The notes: generated by a model not told the origin, from the letters alone. Shown: positions 1,514 through 19,644, counted from the stretch's first letter. The stretch: DNA of 38,404 nucleotides from Filifactor alocis (GCA_030529565.1 JAUMWQ010000001.1:38982-77385), one strand, 5' to 3'. Numbers and translations are program-made.

Positions 1514-1658
1514 CATAATTATATTTTCTAATCGTCCGGGCATGCAATTTGAATTCTCTGATGACCCAAAATTTTTTGGATAAATATTTTTAGTATAAGA
1601 AGAGAAGTGTAGAACACAATCTCTCTTTATTAGACAGTTTCCCCACAGGAGGATCCCT

Positions 1659-2048
1659 ATGAAAATTACGATCGTCTCAAAACTCAAAAAGCCCCCTTCT
1701 TTTTGCAAGGCTGCCATCGATGAGTACAAAAAGAGGCTCTCACGCTATGCAAATTTTTCCTTGCTTTCAGAGCTTTCGCCACGTTTCAAGGACAAGAAGG
1801 ACTGTTTGATCCTTCAGGTTCGCACAGGAAAAAGAAGTCCTTCCTCGGAGGAGTTTTCCCAAGAGATCTCAAAATACAACCGGGAGGGGATCAGCCATCT
1901 GATCTTCCTTATAGATGACGTACAGGAGGGAGCTTGCGATATGTATCTCTCTTCCTTGGATATCTCCCCCGAACTTAGAACCGTACTTTTGCTCGAACAG
2001 ATCTACCGTGCTTTTCGGATCCAAAACAATGAGCCCTATCACAAATAG
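1659..2048 (+). CDS. short RlmH-like protein lacking the SAM loop (RlmH-A)
   Basis: 129 residues against about 155-160 for RlmH, the SPOUT-fold methyltransferase that methylates N3 of pseudouridine 1915 in 23S rRNA. The N-terminus (MKITIVSKLKK) and the C-terminal LLLEQIYRAFRI...EPYHK (112-129) are typical, including the PYHK tail that reaches the rRNA. The SAM-binding GGxxG loop is replaced by LIDDVQEGA (84-92). The LTLPHPL segment reads LDISPEL, and about 20 residues are missing around position 45. It probably cannot bind SAM alone. The ATG follows CACAGGAGGATCCCT. The second RlmH at 5551 has the opposite defect. It is possibly a partner subunit or a decaying paralogue. Confidence 0.8.
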   Translation: MKITIVSKLKKPPSFCKAAIDEYKKRLSRYANFSLLSELSPRFKDKKDCLILQVRTGKRSPSSEEFSQEISKYNREGISHLIFLIDDVQEGACDMYLSSLDISPELRTVLLLEQIYRAFRIQNNEPYHK

Positions 2049-2066
2049 CGAGTGGGGCTCATTGTT
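2025..2066 (+). repeat. 12-bp perfect inverted repeat over the RlmH-A stop codon
   Basis: Arms AACAATGAGCCC (2025-2036) and GGGCTCATTGTT (2055-2066) enclose an 18-bp loop that contains the last codons and the TAG stop. The right arm touches the first base of parS. The hairpin is strong, but no T-run follows directly. Confidence 0.7.
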
Positions 2067-2081
2067 GTTTCACGTGAAACA
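2066..2081. promoter_or_regulatory. parS: parS centromere site
   Basis: TGTTTCACGTGAAACA is an exact match to the canonical 16-bp ParB/Spo0J binding palindrome. It lies in the convergent spacer between RlmH-A and trkH, about 31-32 kb from oriC. It is the only perfect copy I see. The likely binder is the canonical ParB at 18877-19632. Confidence 0.95.
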
Positions 2082-2094
2082 TTGTTTTATTATG

Positions 2095-2127
2095 AAAGAA
2101 GATGTTCGAAAATCTTCTCTTCTTTTT
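2095..2127 (+). terminator. terminator after RlmH-A
   Basis: AGAAGAT (2097-2103) pairs with ATCTTCT (2112-2118) around an 8-base loop, followed by CTTCTTTTTG. It lies between convergent genes and may serve both, with the better T-tract on the plus strand. Confidence 0.6.
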
Positions 2128-2144
2128 GTTCCTTTTATCTCGAA

Positions 2145-3587
2145 CTATTTTCGAATCCAGGTAGAGGGGAGGAAGATCACGGCTACCGGGAATAACTCCA
2201 GCCTTCCTGCCAGCATATTAAAGGAGAGCACGATCTTGGTGATCGACGTCAAACTACTGAAATTACTTACCGGGTTCGTTACTCCCAAACCCGGGCCCAC
2301 ATTGTTCAAGCAACAGGAGACCGAAGCAAAGCTGGTGATTAGATCCAAACCTTGACTGAGCAGGATAAGGGTCGAGGCTGCAAAGACTACGGCATAGATG
2401 TTCATATATACGTGAACCTCTTCCATGACTTTTTTTCTTACTACTCCTCCTTCGAACCTCGTACTGATCACGCGGTTGGGAGAGAGCATCTTGTTCATCC
2501 CTTCACAGGCATTTTTGACCAGGAGTATGATACGCGACACCTTCATTCCTCCGCCGGTAGATCCTGCCATCGCACCGATGAACATCAACAACAGAAGGAT
2601 ACCCTGTGAGAGATAGGGCCACTGTTCATAGTTTTCGGTGATAAAACCTGTTGTCGTAATGATCGAAGCGACCTGAAAGGCCGATGCGCGAAAGGCGGGC
2701 CAAACTCCTCCGGCTATGTCTATGATGTTAAAGGTGATTGCCGCGATTGCAGCACCTACGATCAACAGGTAGACCCTGAGTTCTTCACTGGAGAAGAATT
2801 CTTTAAGGTTTCCTATCAAGATGAAGTAGTAGAGCTGAAAGTTTATCCCGAAGAGGATCATAAACACCGTGATCACACCTTCAATATAGGCGCTGTTGTA
2901 ATAGGCTACACTGGCATTCTTCGAAGAAAAACCGCCCGTTCCCGCTGTCGAAAAAGCGTGGATCCACGAATCGAAAAAGCTCATCCCCCCGGCTTTTAAG
3001 AGGACGACCTCGAGGATGGTCAAGGTGATATAGATCCCGTAAAGGATCCTTGCCGTCGATGACATCTTGGATACCAACTTCCCGACCTTATGCCCGGGGA
3101 CCTCCGCCTTCATCAAATACATATTATTGTTGTGGTTCTGAGGAAGGACTGCGAAGGCAAAGACCAGAACTCCCATCCCACCGATCCAATGAGTGAAGCT
3201 TCGCCAAAACAGAAGGCCGTTGGACATCACTTCGATATCGTCCAAAATCGTCGAACCGGTTGTCGTAAATCCTGATACCGTCTCAAAAAAAGCATCGACA
3301 TAGGAAGGGATCTCCCTGCTGATATAGAAGGGGAGCGCTCCGAATAAGGATAGTACGATCCAAGCTACCGATACAATGACCATCCCTTCCTTCGCATAAA
3401 AACTCGTATCTTCCGGTCTCTTCCAGGAAAGTAGAAATCCCGTCAGCACAAGAGCCGTGGCTACCCCGAACAAAACATAGGAGACCTGCTCCCGATAGAA
3501 CAGGGATACAAAGCCCGGCACAAGAAGAAGCAAGCCTTCGAGTTTCACGATCAAACCTATAATATAACGAATCATTTTATAGTTCAT
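2145..3587 (-). CDS. trkH: Trk/Ktr potassium uptake membrane subunit TrkH
   Basis: A 480-residue polytopic membrane protein of the TrkH/KtrB superfamily, the ion-conducting subunit of a K+ uptake system gated by cytosolic TrkA. The four pore loops are visible in order: SGFTTTGST, TAGTGGFSS, TTTGFIT and NNVGPGLG, each with the selectivity-filter glycine. Membrane segments run from residue 5 (IRYIIGLIVKLEGLLLLV) to the C-terminus. The ATG is preceded by GGAAGG. It follows trkA with a 4-bp gap, so the two are co-transcribed and probably translationally coupled. Confidence 0.93.
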   Translation of the reverse strand: MNYKMIRYIIGLIVKLEGLLLLVPGFVSLFYREQVSYVLFGVATALVLTGFLLSWKRPEDTSFYAKEGMVIVSVAWIVLSLFGALPFYISREIPSYVDAFFETVSGFTTTGSTILDDIEVMSNGLLFWRSFTHWIGGMGVLVFAFAVLPQNHNNNMYLMKAEVPGHKVGKLVSKMSSTARILYGIYITLTILEVVLLKAGGMSFFDSWIHAFSTAGTGGFSSKNASVAYYNSAYIEGVITVFMILFGINFQLYYFILIGNLKEFFSSEELRVYLLIVGAAIAAITFNIIDIAGGVWPAFRASAFQVASIITTTGFITENYEQWPYLSQGILLLLMFIGAMAGSTGGGMKVSRIILLVKNACEGMNKMLSPNRVISTRFEGGVVRKKVMEEVHVYMNIYAVVFAASTLILLSQGLDLITSFASVSCCLNNVGPGLGVTNPVSNFSSLTSITKIVLSFNMLAGRLELFPVAVIFLPSTWIRK

Positions 3588-3591
3588 AGTG

Positions 3592-4950
3592 CTATCCTTC
3601 CAAAATATCGTTTAAATCTCTCAGATATTTCTGTGTTGTAACAACGATCACCCTATCCTTCTCCTGAATGGTGTCCATTCCTCTGGGATAGATCAACTCA
3701 TTTCCTCTTAAGATATATGCGATCAAAATATTATCTTTTATCGGCATCTCTTCAAGGGTAACCCCCAGTTGAGAAAAGTTTGAGCATACGTTGAACTCCA
3801 GAGCTTCCACTCGGTTCTCCAAGATGCGATAAAGAGTCTCCACGTTGCTGCCCTGTGAATTCTGTTTGGCCCTCACATAGCGAACGATCCTCGTTGCCAT
3901 GATGTCTTTAGGGATCACACAGCTTTCCAAGCCCACCTTTTCCAAGATAGCCAAAAGATTTCGACGGCTGATCTTCGTAATGGTTTTAGACACTCCCTTG
4001 GAGGCCGCATGCATCGATACGATGATGTTTTCCTCATCGATACCGGTTAAAGAAACGCAGGCGTCAAAGTAGGAGATTCTCTCTTCATCGAGTACATCCT
4101 GCAAGGTTCCGTCGCTGTTTATAATCGTAGCCTCCGGAAGTTTCTTGCTGAGTTCCTTGCATCGTTCTTTATCCAGTTCGATAATCTTGACATTGATATG
4201 ATGTTTTATGAGCTTTTGTGCCAGGTAGTAGGAGATCCTTCCCCCGCCTATCATCAATACATCCTTCATTCTTTTTTTGGACAGTCCCTGATGCTTGATC
4301 ATCTTCATCACCTGCTCGGTCGTCCCCGTAACGAAGAGACGATCCTCCGCCTGTATAACGAAGTCTCCCCTGGGGATAAAGAGTTCCTCATCACGAACTA
4401 CTGCACAGACGAGGATATGAAGTCCCTTCCTCTTATGCAGTTCCATCAAAGGAAGTCCTCTGAGGTCGCTTTCTTGCGAAACTCTGATTTCAACGAGGTT
4501 TACCCTTCCCTTTGCAAAGGTTTCTATATTCGCCGCAACAGGAAACTGCAACATCCTAAACATGTCGTTTGCAGCTTCAAACTCCGGATTGATGATCATA
4601 TTGATACCGATCTCGTCTCTCATGAACTCCATCTGTGTCGAGTACTCGGGATTTCTTACCCTCGCTATCGTATACTCTACACCAAGTCTTTTTGCCAGGA
4701 TACAGCACAAAATATTGACCTCATCCGCGTTAGTAACGGCGATGATCATATCCGCGCCTTTGACACCCGCATTCATCTGCACATCGTAGGCGGCTCCGTT
4801 TCCTACGGTACCTATGATATCATAACTGTCGACCAGTTTTTCCACCAAATTGGAATTTTGATCGATCACAACGATATCATGGTCTTCTTTGGAGAGGTTT
4901 TCGATCAAGGCCTCTCCCGCTTTTCCTGCTCCAACTATTACGATCCTCAT
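3592..4950 (-). CDS. trkA: Trk potassium uptake regulatory subunit TrkA
   Basis: A cytosolic NAD(H)-binding gating ring subunit of the Trk K+ channel, 452 residues, with two RCK_N-RCK_C modules as in full-length TrkA. The first Rossmann motif, VGAGKAGEAL, starts at residue 5; the second, MIGGGRISYYLA, at about 222. Acidic residues at the ends of beta-strand 2 (VIDQN and IIELD) favour NAD over NADP. I chose the ATG at 4950 because AAGGTGGAG lies 6 bases upstream and the protein then starts MRIVIVGAG as in its family; a 12-residue extension is possible. First gene of trkA-trkH, with a long leader containing a hairpin. Confidence 0.93.
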   Translation of the reverse strand: MRIVIVGAGKAGEALIENLSKEDHDIVVIDQNSNLVEKLVDSYDIIGTVGNGAAYDVQMNAGVKGADMIIAVTNADEVNILCCILAKRLGVEYTIARVRNPEYSTQMEFMRDEIGINMIINPEFEAANDMFRMLQFPVAANIETFAKGRVNLVEIRVSQESDLRGLPLMELHKRKGLHILVCAVVRDEELFIPRGDFVIQAEDRLFVTGTTEQVMKMIKHQGLSKKRMKDVLMIGGGRISYYLAQKLIKHHINVKIIELDKERCKELSKKLPEATIINSDGTLQDVLDEERISYFDACVSLTGIDEENIIVSMHAASKGVSKTITKISRRNLLAILEKVGLESCVIPKDIMATRIVRYVRAKQNSQGSNVETLYRILENRVEALEFNVCSNFSQLGVTLEEMPIKDNILIAYILRGNELIYPRGMDTIQEKDRVIVVTTQKYLRDLNDILEG

Positions 4951-5090
4951 TTTCTTCTCCACCTTACAAAACTCTTTGTCTAACACGCTCCTGCGTGATA
5001 TTTACGAGGTTTTTCTTTCCGGGATCCCGTCTCATCTTTTTCGGTCCGGTCGAGATCCTTGATTTTTCCTTCACAAAACCAAACCATAGG

Positions 5091-5119
5091 ATGGTTTAAC
5101 AACCTCCTATGGCTCCTGT
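5091..5119 (-). promoter_or_regulatory. hairpin in the trkA leader
   Basis: CCATAGGATGGTT (plus strand) pairs with AACCTCCTATGG around TAAC with one bulged base. No T-run follows on either strand, so it is a structured leader or operator rather than an obvious terminator. Confidence 0.4.
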
Positions 5120-5128
5120 AAAAGCTTG

Positions 5129-5269
5129 GGATACACTGCACAAAGACGATGTCCCCTCCTTGCTATGAGTTCATCAAATACGCAAGTCTTTCAAACTAAC
5201 ACTTGCAAGAAGTTCAGCATTTCCATGAGGTTGATTCTATACTGATGCCTTGCACTGTGCGGTATTTCC
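5129..5269 (+). mobile_element. MITE copy B (141 bp) with CTTG target duplication
   Basis: Ends GGATACACTGCACAAAG and GTGCGGTATTTCC are inverted repeats. CTTG occurs immediately on both sides (5125-5128 and 5270-5273), a 4-bp target site duplication. The interior has no reading frame. Confidence 0.8.
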
Positions 5270-5550
5270 CTTGTTTCCACTATACAAATTTGGGGAAATT
5301 CTCAAGGAAGATCTCCGTAAAACCGGATCTTAAACTCCAAACTTAACGAATGATCGATCCTTCCTTCCCGACTTATATACGACTTCTTATCTTACCACTA
5401 TAGAGCCTTTGTTTCAAGTTCGGGAAAAGGATTTTTTCAACTTCTTTACATTCGAAGAGGCTATCGCATTCTCCCATCTACATTCTCCGTTACCGGAATA
5501 CAAGTTAAAGGAAAGCGAGTTAGAGCTATCGAATTCTTCATTACCTTCGC

Positions 5551-6012
5551 CTAATTTTTTATCTTAGAAAGTGCCTCGCTGATCTGCTCCAAGAGCACGA
5601 TGCGAAAGAGCTGATGAGGAAAGGTAAGATTTGAAAAACTGATGGAAGTCGAGGCTCTCTTCCTAACATTTTCTCCTATCCCCAAACTTCCACCTATAAC
5701 AAAGGCAAGGTCTTTATTCAGTTCCTCACTCCTCCTTAAAAACTCCACGAACTGTTTGGTGTTCATCGGCGGAGCGCCTACATCGAGCAAAACGACCTCC
5801 TCGTTCTTTTGAAGGCAGGTTAAGATCTTTTCTCCTTCGCGTTGTTTTATCTTATCGTTTTCCTTTACAGAGGCTCGCTCGGAAGTTTTTTCATCCTCGA
5901 GCTCAACGATATCGAAGGACACTCTCGAAGAGATTTTTCGAAAAAAATGTGTCCGAGCCTCCCTCAGGTATTCTTCCTTAAGCCTTCCTACCGCTATCAC
6001 ACGGATCTTCAT
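5551..6012 (-). CDS. RlmH with SAM loop but truncated tail (RlmH-B)
   Basis: 153 residues of the RlmH SPOUT family (23S rRNA pseudouridine-1915 N3-methyltransferase). The SAM-binding knot is intact: VIGGSLGIG at 105-113 and NLTFPHQLFRIVLLEQI at 128-144. The protein then ends SEALSKIKN. The usual YRAxxIxxxxPYHK tail, which contacts the rRNA and completes the active site, is absent. I checked the three downstream frames and the tail is not recoverable by a frameshift, so it is a genuine loss. The gene lies 6 bp after exoA in the same operon. RlmH-A at 1659 retains exactly the missing tail. Confidence 0.88.
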   Translation of the reverse strand: MKIRVIAVGRLKEEYLREARTHFFRKISSRVSFDIVELEDEKTSERASVKENDKIKQREGEKILTCLQKNEEVVLLDVGAPPMNTKQFVEFLRRSEELNKDLAFVIGGSLGIGENVRKRASTSISFSNLTFPHQLFRIVLLEQISEALSKIKN

Positions 6013-6928: not shown

Positions 6929-6956
6929 AAAAAGTGGACGTGATGTCCACTTTTTT
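6929..6956 (-). terminator. GTGGAC hairpin, copy 2, terminator of plasmid-type parB
   Basis: AAAAAGTGGAC-GTGAT-GTCCACTTTTTT, with stems of 11 bp including the A/T flanks. It overlaps the parB stop codon and has T-tracts on both strands, so it should terminate parA-parB transcription. The 17-bp core is identical to copy 1, 131 bp away. Confidence 0.75.
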
Positions 6957-7953
6957 ATTTTTCTTTCTTCTGTAGTTTCAGCACAAGATCGATCAACTCT
7001 CGAACCTCGTCCTCCTCATGAAAAACCGCATGCTGCATTACCCCCTCATGAAAGAAGCTTACCTTACAACTCTGTTTTTCCTGAGTGATCTCCGCCTTCA
7101 TCTTGAGAAGATCCCTCTTTGTCATCCCCGGCTTAAAGTAACTCATCGACTGGGTCGGGTACTTCAGCAGGAGGTCAAGGTAGTTTTTTTCGATCTCTTC
7201 TTGGATCTCCGGCTTCATCACGGCGAGTTTCGCTCCGGTCTCTAAGGAGATTCGTCCGGTATAGAAGAGTTCCAACAGCTCCGGGCGCAGGTTCTCCAAT
7301 TTTCGGTAGCGGTCGATATGCCTGCCGCTCATCTCAAAACTCTCGGCGACGATCTCCCTCGTCTTCCTGTTCCTGTACTCCTCTAGGCCTTCTCTCCTCT
7401 TCTCCTTGATGATCTTGTACTTCTCTATAATACTCTTTGTCAAAAGTTTGGGGCCGAGTTGGCGTTGGGCGTAGTTCGCATCGATGATGATCTCTCTGGC
7501 ATCCGAGTCCGAAAGATTTTCCTTGACGATGGCGAAGATCTCCTTGAAGTCCTCACTCCTCACATCCGTGAGTTCCATCTCTCTCAAGTTGCTGCCCTCT
7601 TCTCGTTCCAACTTTTCAAGTTCTTGACGAATATAGCGATAGGCTCTGACGCGGTTATGTCCCGACAGGATCCTGTTTCTGCCGTCGATATGCTCCACTA
7701 CTATGGGGTGGAGAAGTCCGTGAATCAAAATGGAGCGCACCAATCTTTCAAATTCATCCCCTTCCAGAGGGGGATAGAAGTTCCAATCCGAAGGTGCAGC
7801 CTCGAGTTTGTCTATCTCTATCTTGACGATCTGCTCCTGCTGTGCCTGACGAAGTTCGGACTTTTGTTGCGACAGGGAATAGTCTCTTGTGGAAGCGTTT
7901 TTGAAGCTGGTCATAGAGCCTATGTCGATGTTTTTAACCTTTTTGGGAGACAC
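6955..7953 (-). CDS. ParB/RepB-like partition protein, plasmid type
   Basis: 332 residues. A ParB N-terminal domain at about 42-150 has GHNRVRA (98-104) in place of the GERRxRA box. A helix-turn-helix region follows at about 200-235 (REIVAESFEMSGRHIDRYRKL). The long, charged N-terminus and divergent C-terminus resemble partition proteins of plasmids and integrative elements, not Spo0J. The ENLQRxDLNP motif of canonical ParB is absent. The start is GTG with a near-perfect AGGAGGTGAT, inside the end of parA (20-bp overlap), so the pair is coupled. Its centromere is unknown; the twin GTGGAC palindromes downstream are a candidate. Role: segregation of an integrated element, or an adopted chromosomal function. 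Confidence 0.85.
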   Translation of the reverse strand: MSPKKVKNIDIGSMTSFKNASTRDYSLSQQKSELRQAQQEQIVKIEIDKLEAAPSDWNFYPPLEGDEFERLVRSILIHGLLHPIVVEHIDGRNRILSGHNRVRAYRYIRQELEKLEREEGSNLREMELTDVRSEDFKEIFAIVKENLSDSDAREIIIDANYAQRQLGPKLLTKSIIEKYKIIKEKRREGLEEYRNRKTREIVAESFEMSGRHIDRYRKLENLRPELLELFYTGRISLETGAKLAVMKPEIQEEIEKNYLDLLLKYPTQSMSYFKPGMTKRDLLKMKAEITQEKQSCKVSFFHEGVMQHAVFHEEDEVRELIDLVLKLQKKEK

Positions 7954-8773
7954 GTCGGATCACCTCCTGCGCAAACTCCTTGTACTGCATAGCCGCCCTG
8001 CTGCTCGGAGAATATTCGAGTACCGCTATGCTGTTCCACTGGGCCTTTTCCACTGAAGTATCGAGGTTGATCTTCGTTTCAAACAGGATCTCTTTTCCGA
8101 AGATGTTCTCAATCAGGTTCTGTCCTCTCTGGTTCATAATCTTGTTGTTCGGCTTGTATAAGGTGGTGAGAATGCCCAAGATTTCGAGTTTTTCGTTCAT
8201 AAGGGAAAACTGGTGATAAAAGTCGAGGAAGGTCCTGATCCCTCTTATTCCAAACATCGCCATCGGCACCGGAATGATCACATAGTCCGAGACGTTGAGG
8301 ATGTTCGCCGCCAGATCTCCGAGGTAAGTCGATGTGTCAAAGATGACAAAGTCATATTTCCTGCTCTCAAGAAGAGGGGTGATGATCCTCTTTAGAAGGA
8401 ACTCCCTTTGAAATTCGTGATGAAGGTCGTATTCGATCTTGCTTATATAGTCATCTCCGGACACAAGGTCGACATTCTCGTACCTCGTCGGAGTGATAAA
8501 CTCACTTAGGTCCTGTTTCTGTCTGATCGCCTGATAGATCGTCTTGTTAAAGTCGATCAGTTGCAGGCCGAATTCCGTCAAGGACTCATCGACGGTGAAA
8601 CCCAAGGTGTTGGTCAGATCCATCTGCGAGTCGCAGTCTACGCTTAGCACCTTATAACCCTGTTCTCCAAGGGCAATCGCCAGCATGGATGCAGTCGTGC
8701 TCTTTCCGGAACCCCCTTTTGAATTTGCGATCGAAATCACACGGGTTCTTTCCGGACGATATTTTTTGCTCAA
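7934..8773 (-). CDS. ParA/Soj-family partition ATPase
   Basis: 279 residues with a deviant Walker A, SKGGSGKSTTA, at about 19-29 (signature lysine included). The A' region is SVDCDSQMDLT. The Walker B segment FVIFDTSTYLG lacks the usual IDxPP prolines, a divergence seen in plasmid-type ParA. The start codon is TTG at 8773 with AGGGGAG upstream. It overlaps the downstream parB by 20 bp. It is the only ParA in the window, although the canonical chromosomal ParB at 18.9-19.6 kb lacks one. Confidence 0.9.
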   Translation of the reverse strand: MSKKYRPERTRVISIANSKGGSGKSTTASMLAIALGEQGYKVLSVDCDSQMDLTNTLGFTVDESLTEFGLQLIDFNKTIYQAIRQKQDLSEFITPTRYENVDLVSGDDYISKIEYDLHHEFQREFLLKRIITPLLESRKYDFVIFDTSTYLGDLAANILNVSDYVIIPVPMAMFGIRGIRTFLDFYHQFSLMNEKLEILGILTTLYKPNNKIMNQRGQNLIENIFGKEILFETKINLDTSVEKAQWNSIAVLEYSPSSRAAMQYKEFAQEVIRRVSQKG

Positions 8774-18876: not shown

Positions 18877-19632
18877 CTACTGCCCTGTCAACAGCTCCAA
18901 GATCCGCTCAAGTTCTTCCTTTCCGTAGTATTCTATCACAAGTCTTCCTCTTCTCTCATCGCCTTGGAGTTCGACCTTGGTGTCAAGACGATTCTCCGCT
19001 TCTTCCAAGGCCCGTCTCAAAAACACATCCTCCCATACCGCCTGCTTCTTCTTATGTTTTTTGACCAAGGTCTCGGTCGAACGAACCGACAGCTTGTTGT
19101 CCAAGATGAGTTGAAGAAGTTTTTGTCTTTCCTCTTCGTCGCGGATCCCGGCCAAGGAACGACCGTGTGCCTCCGAGATCTCCTCCTTGAGGACAGCCTG
19201 CGTCGTCCTCTCATCCAACTTCAAAAGTCGAATGGAATTTGCCACATAGGAGCGACTCTTGCCGATGATCGACGCCAAGTCTTCCTGACGATAGGATTTC
19301 TCCTCCATCAAAACCTTCAAAGCCCGTGCTTCTTCGATCGGATTGAGGTCCTCCCTCTGAAGGTTCTCGATCAGGGACACCTCCCTGAAATCGTCCTCAG
19401 TGTGAACAAGGGCAGGAACGGTCTTTGCTCCGTTTAACAAAAGGGCGCGATACCTTCTCTCTCCCGCGATGATGATGTAGTTCTCGCCATCATATCTCAC
19501 CAAGATGGGAGATAGGAGACCATAGCGTCTTATCGACTCCGCCAACTCCTTCAAAGCCTCGGGATCAAACTCCTTGCGAGGCTGATCGGGATCGGGGATG
19601 ATCTTGCTTAAACTAAGTTCGACAACTTGCAT
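18877..19632 (-). CDS. parB: chromosome partition protein ParB (Spo0J)
   Basis: 251 residues. ParB CTPase/N-terminal domain with DPDQPRKEF, GERRYRA (57-63) and ENLQREDLNPIEEA (89-102), the motifs for CTP binding and clamp closure. The helix-turn-helix (YRQEDLASIIGKSRSYVANSIRLLKL) binds parS. A C-terminal dimerisation domain ends the protein. The ATG at 19632 has AGGAG 9 bases upstream, overlapping the rsmG stop; an upstream TTG is too close to that site. Unusually, parA (soj) is missing from its place before parB. The perfect parS at 2066 is its expected target. Confidence 0.96.
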   Translation of the reverse strand: MQVVELSLSKIIPDPDQPRKEFDPEALKELAESIRRYGLLSPILVRYDGENYIIIAGERRYRALLLNGAKTVPALVHTEDDFREVSLIENLQREDLNPIEEARALKVLMEEKSYRQEDLASIIGKSRSYVANSIRLLKLDERTTQAVLKEEISEAHGRSLAGIRDEEERQKLLQLILDNKLSVRSTETLVKKHKKKQAVWEDVFLRRALEEAENRLDTKVELQGDERRGRLVIEYYGKEELERILELLTGQ

Positions 19633-19644
19633 TGCTACCAACTC

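Follow-up and report, generated by a model that had tools for sequence, protein, structure and literature searches.

RlmH (YbeA/OrfX; PF02590/TIGR00246), the N3-methyltransferase of pseudouridine 1915 in 23S rRNA, is a homodimer encoded by a single gene, in which each chain carries both halves of the active site. In the Escherichia coli enzyme this site is composite, with the S-adenosylmethionine (SAM) pocket supplied by one protomer and E138, R142, Y152, H153 and R154 by the other, and with K11, K42 and R43 assigned to the SAM side and R25, R26, R142 and R154 to the tail side (Koh 2017, PMC5430550). The variants Y152F, H153F, R154A, E138A and E138Q are inactive, and R142A lowers kcat/KM at least 30-fold (PMC5430550). 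The second SAM site of the dimer has an affinity of ~1 mM and is empty below 500 µM, and crystals hold two SAMs (PMC5430550); a review concluded that probably only one site takes part in catalysis (PMC9508554). RlmH is dispensable in E. coli, a deletion strain having been used by Koh 2017 (PMC5430550). Here, we describe a window of 38,404 nucleotides from Filifactor alocis (GCA_030529565.1, JAUMWQ010000001.1:38982-77385; positions are counted from its first letter) in which the two halves of RlmH are found in separate genes, termed RlmH-A and RlmH-B (A and B hereafter), neither of which encodes the complete set of active-site residues. Their interpretation as the partners of a heterodimer is well supported by the comparison of sequences, not proven.

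In Trm6–Trm61, the tRNA m1A58 methyltransferase, the subunits are paralogous and one has lost SAM binding. In the archaeal tRNA splicing endonuclease, a homomeric enzyme became heteromeric, its catalytic and structural roles being divided among paralogous subunits; it is a nuclease of a different fold, unlike A and B, and we know of no description there of a single shared helper clade driving repeated truncation. Trm6–Trm61 is likewise a two-subunit enzyme (PMC5007650). It has a Rossmann fold, a tRNA substrate and one ancient eukaryotic origin, whereas the present case concerns a SPOUT enzyme whose resident partner would have lost its tail repeatedly. The pair described here resembles RlmH itself in family, fold, the SAM pocket of B, the E-R-Y-H-R/K tail of A and a predicted cross-dimer composite site (PMC5430550). 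No earlier report of a split RlmH was found in the literature searched, in which coverage of subscription journals was thin.

Gene A (1659..2048, + strand; 129 residues) is preceded by a ribosome-binding site (1640..1658, +), with AGGAGG a few bases before the ATG, and gene B (5551..6012, − strand; 153 residues) lies on the same contig, so both derive from one organism. The two products, the candidate tail donor and SAM-pocket donor, respectively, were assigned through their translations, PF02590 (SPOUT_MTase; E-values of 8.9e-19 for A and 5.3e-39 for B, both above the curated cut-off), a residue alignment and AlphaFold models. The NCBIfam RlmH models matched B below their curated cut-offs (153.9 against 172 bits and 118.5 against 149.7) and A far below (67.7 against 172 bits). 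Translation bore out what the initial annotation had read from the window, namely that A keeps the C-terminal tail and lacks the GGxxG and PHQ/PHP motifs, whereas B keeps GGSLGIG and the PHQ segment, which reads LTFPHQL, and lacks the YRA...PYHK tail; its account of the composite site of the E. coli dimer likewise agrees with Koh 2017 (PMC5430550). The catalytic tail of A, EQIYRAFRIQNNEPYHK followed by the stop codon, occupies positions 1995..2048 (+), and B ends in LLEQISEALSKIKN. A retains K25/R26 (EYKKRL), E113-Q, Y116, R117, I121 and Y127-H128-K129, in which E113, Y116, R117, I121, Y127, H128 and K129 correspond to E. coli E138, Y141, R142, I146, Y152, H153 and R154; it has neither positions 43-58 nor the FPHQ segment, and its GGxxG loop is missing together with helix alpha4. 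B retains GRLKE, DEK and EGEKIL besides its glycine loop and LTFPHQL, and carries THFFRKI in place of the EYxKRL motif (positions 22-26). Two of these complementary losses had escaped the first reading, that of ~43-58 in A (the DEK...EG region, on the SAM side) and that of EYxKRL in B (on the tail side). By alignment, neither chain alone has all the defining features of RlmH, as A fails on the SAM pocket and B on the tail; the two jointly have those visible in the sequence, and the pair is reported here as a putative variant of RlmH encoded in two genes.

The same partition was found when A (35), B (33) and canonical RlmH proteins (68) were aligned in E. coli numbering. R26, Y141, R142, I146, Y152, H153 and K154 are kept in 35/35 A proteins, so that Y, R, I, Y, H and K of the tail are invariant, whereas the Y152-H153-K154 tail occurs in 0/33 B proteins, with R142 in 11 and R26 in five of them. 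In turn, G9, E56, G103, S105, G107, T126 and H129 are kept in all 33 B proteins, and E56, G107 and H129 are found in none of the 35 A proteins. The SAM-side residues of Koh 2017 are preferentially in B and the tail-side residues in A (rank test, p = 1.3e-4, first 19 pairs), and between them A and B account for the residues of the composite site as published (alignment against PMC5430550). The complementary pattern is far beyond chance because it recurs in both directions in 35 genomes, the only intermediates being graded lengths of the B tail.

Very probably, A and B are two unlike subunits of one RlmH, forming an obligate heterodimer with a single site for methylation of pseudouridine 1915; the physical association, the activity and the target nucleotide are what we infer from these patterns. 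B would be the resident RlmH, binding SAM in its knot and providing the SAM-side contacts to RNA, while A, unable to bind SAM, would dock on B through the usual head-to-tail interface of RlmH. The tail of A (the E138-R142-Y152 triad, H153 and K154, plus K25/R26) would thereby be inserted over the SAM of B to give one active site, which would methylate N3 of pseudouridine 1915 in 23S rRNA. Since an A–A dimer would be devoid of a SAM pocket and a B–B dimer of a catalytic tail, only A–B should work, with one site per dimer. This mechanism is supported by the loss of activity of the homodimer upon change of Y152, H153, R154 or E138 (PMC5430550), and forfeiting the second site would cost little, given that a single site of the homodimer is apparently in use. 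As to its origin, A would have arisen as a SAM-dead RlmH paralogue, and a ratchet may have followed: once an A capable of pairing was present, the tail of the resident enzyme would be redundant, its loss would go unpunished, and A would become indispensable.

Searches were performed with PF02590 over the relatives and the order, and with a profile of A proteins over the class and the phylum. A was found in 33 genomes of at least 12 families, plus one (G028) with frameshifts in both genes, and two more carriers, Thermoanaerobacter wiegelii Rt8.B1 and Youngiibacter fragilis 232.1, came from a named genome collection, for 35 A carriers in all. The scan of that collection with the A alignment returned mostly canonical RlmH, because the most conserved stretch of A is the shared tail, and these two species were the only true carriers. 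A tail-less B is present in every A-bearing genome except G557, whose contig ends at A, and full-length RlmH is present in 0 of the 35. Conversely, where a tail-less RlmH was uncut by a contig end or frameshift, A was present in 8/8 genomes among 118 relatives, with matches listed singly, and in 6/6 among 157 genomes of the class, the window genome being counted in both tallies. The initial annotation had looked to relatives for co-occurrence of the two genes and for a B that stands alone; the former is what the 35 genomes display, and no tail-less B without A was encountered in either of the two sets whose matches were listed singly. Four apparent candidates, G072 (L044), G077, G229 (L064) and G523, were rejected as split RlmH, each being one full-length gene with a frameshift or contig break and no A. 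The interruption is a frameshift in G072, G229 and G523, and that of G523 (C29:97868-98342) lies at position 132, just ahead of the tail.

A single branch (SH-aLRT 99) separates all A proteins from the rest in a tree that also comprised B and canonical proteins, and they share deletions at positions ~43-58 and 103-110; for both reasons, A most likely arose once. For B, the tail columns were removed to keep the trait from influencing the topology, and a second tree was built with six more genomes and without the long-branch B proteins of G050, G172 and G193. A single B clade was rejected (p-AU 2.75e-5, tail columns removed). In the second tree, the well-supported branches cannot be reconciled with fewer than six changes between the full-length and the tail-less form, bootstrap trees giving 9-12, and these are read as losses because regaining the tail is unlikely; six or more independent truncations of the resident RlmH would thus have taken place, all of them in the company of A. 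The B proteins of G473, G501, G806, G1012/G1137 and G154/G169/G187 cluster with full-length RlmH from the same family. That of G473 (L114 1498-1971, −) is a complete RlmH ending in EQIYRAFKILNNEP, short by YHK only and with R25/R26 kept, in a genome that also carries A (L083), and it represents an apparent early stage of the split. Parts of YRAF persist in the B proteins of G501 and G699, and this gradation suggests that the tail was lost first and the tail-side RNA residues later. It is likely that RlmH is naturally split and obligately heterodimeric in many scattered Clostridia-like genomes, which one SAM-dead helper lineage entered and in each of which the resident tail was lost. A may have spread by transfer, or may have been widely lost elsewhere.

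An explanation under which B is active alone, with another of its residues or a ribosomal contact as the general base, draws on the retention in B of the entire SAM pocket and of E138 as E/D. A would then be a regulator or a factor in its own right, for instance an RNA-binding chaperone or a partner of RlmH with a dominant-negative effect; having no SAM pocket, it would not be catalytic by itself. This explanation is unlikely, given that each of the changes Y152F, H153F and R154A abolishes activity of the E. coli enzyme (PMC5430550), that the B tail was lost only where A is present, on those six or more independent occasions, and that what A retains is precisely the set of catalytic residues of the tail, for which a pure regulator would have no use.

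With the heterodimer retained, a different origin can be considered, in which rlmH was duplicated separately in each family and the copies subfunctionalised mutually. Linked pairs in many families would fit such a history, but we regard it as quite improbable, as all A proteins lie beyond the well-supported branch, apart from the B proteins of their own genomes and from canonical RlmH, the A proteins have their deletions in common, and the B proteins of G473, G501, G806, G1012 and G154 group with canonical RlmH of the same family. The proposal of the initial annotation, an obligate heterodimer arising through subfunctionalisation after duplication, therefore stands in its first part, for which the comparative evidence is strong, and is wrong in detail in its second, because A is one old clade and B is polyphyletic.

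The arrangement of the genes is also constrained. Wherever the two genes are within 1 kb of each other (24 pairs), A is located at the 3' flank of B and never at the 5' flank; 14 pairs are convergent and 10 tandem, the latter mostly with operon-like spacing or overlapping. Five genomes, namely T. wiegelii (L263; A 3962-4363, +; B 4354-4821, −), G1012, G1137, G324 and G375, have convergent genes whose 3' ends share 10 bp, and in these overlaps the TGA stop of B is antisense to bases of the Tyr-His codons of A. In the window, A (+) and B (−) are convergent, with A 3.5 kb off on the 3' side of B and two genes outside the system in between, a trkH-like K+ transport gene (2145..3587, −; PF02386) and a trkA-like gene (3592..4986, −; PF02254/PF02080). 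In the two loci inspected for flanking genes, the htrA-rlmH context is retained, A sitting at its end, and no recombinase gene was found beside A in either. The 3' end of rlmH (orfX) is a known insertion hotspot, used by SCCmec in staphylococci. Its likeness to the constant position of A on the 3' side of B is only a lead, as is any link of A to an SCC-like insertion, for SCC retains the reading frame and tail of rlmH, unlike tail-less B, and no recombinase accompanies A in the loci read. Carriage of A by phages is not supported, as a scan of viral contigs yielded no A and two ordinary full-length RlmH genes.

Between close relatives in several genera, dN/dS was 0.09-0.29 for A and 0.08-0.25 for B, values for saturated pairs having been discarded, and both genes are under purifying selection. 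The concern in the initial annotation that A might be a relaxed pseudogene is thus answered in the negative for the genera in which the ratio could be measured. The same values bear on the possibility that A is a decaying duplicate and B a working enzyme with a degenerate end, both drifting while the modification at position 1915 is lost. RlmH is non-essential in E. coli (PMC5430550), PF02590 matches are missing from some genomes of the order, and both genes of G028 are frameshifted, all of which would accord with decay. It is nonetheless very improbable, being already contradicted by the selection and residue data: dN/dS is low in both genes, opposite catalytic sets are invariant in A and in B across 35 genomes, and the genes are adjacent, overlapping or closely spaced. 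Under decay, YHK would not have survived in all A proteins and GxSxG in all B proteins.

The AlphaFold models of the window proteins have pLDDT values of 92.8 for A, in which helix alpha4 is absent, and 94.2 for B. The nearest solved fold to B is OrfX/RlmH (4fak; TM 0.95), and those nearest to A are also RlmH, with a larger deviation than for B (TM 0.82 to Bacillus RlmH, 1to0). Without helix alpha4 and the glycine loop, A might be a SPOUT domain with an altered or lost knot.

In the assembly of the window (2.15 Mb, 259 contigs, 79.8% complete), nothing besides A and B matches PF02590, and the closed genome of T. wiegelii (NC_015958.1) likewise holds a single A (match at 2700543-2700938, +) and a single B (2700953-2701402, −) with no other match; a third, intact rlmH, against which the initial annotation had set its proposal, was found in neither. 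That such a gene resides in the unassembled part of the window genome, with A and B as accessories, is extremely unlikely despite the incompleteness and fragmentation of the assembly, as no third copy occurs in T. wiegelii or in many pair-bearing assemblies of 95-100% completeness. The window genome also has four PF00849 matches (RluA/RluD superfamily pseudouridine synthases).

Several observations weigh against the heterodimer or the history proposed for it. E138 is E/D in all B proteins (29 E and 4 D of 33), though only the tail donor should need it, and the A of G750 (L086 1498-1896, −) has K at this catalytic position, where its B has D; a clean division of the role of E138 between A and B is therefore not seen. 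Identity among A proteins is low, at 27-35% to the A of the window, and function could differ among lineages. The single origin of A rests on a quick, long-branched tree plus the shared deletions, the structural models are of monomers only, and the dN/dS values for A come from genomes other than that of the window. With the assembly 79.8% complete, absence of a third RlmH copy there is not proven. Finally, the frameshifts in the two G028 genes (L040 2870-3900), identified against G039, are single-base, two of them at homopolymers, and may reflect sequencing error at homopolymers or joint decay.

Some side observations concern RlmH in other genomes. A significant RlmH match is absent from G022, G033, G034, G066, G085, G096 and G101, which belong to the same order and are mostly near-complete, and this suggests loss of the m3-pseudouridine 1915 modification in them. 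In G388 (L053 1495-2700, −), RlmH ends an open frame of 401 residues, the first 260 of which match no Pfam family, and in G358 (L057 1336-2025, +) it lies in a frame of 229 residues, matched from residue 56 over 173 residues with an internal insertion; either long frame may be a fusion or result from a missed start codon. Elsewhere in the window (6955-8773 and 18877-19641), a ParA-like gene and a weak ParB-like partner are found near walRK-like genes, besides an ordinary parB, which adjoins rsmG and mnmG in the dnaA region.

For genome annotation, the pair means that entries may be misleading, as A scores far below the NCBIfam cut-offs and both halves are called RlmH or A is missed; genomes may be recorded as having two RlmH enzymes when they have one. 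The need for both sites of the RlmH dimer has been open, and a natural one-site enzyme would answer it directly. If the proposed heterodimer is correct, the conversion of a homodimer to a heterodimer would be repeated and observable, with one genome caught at the step at which only YHK is missing. The family would then offer a clean natural experiment on this transition, comprising one helper clade, at least six truncations and graded stages, for which culturable hosts exist, such as Thermoanaerobacter wiegelii.

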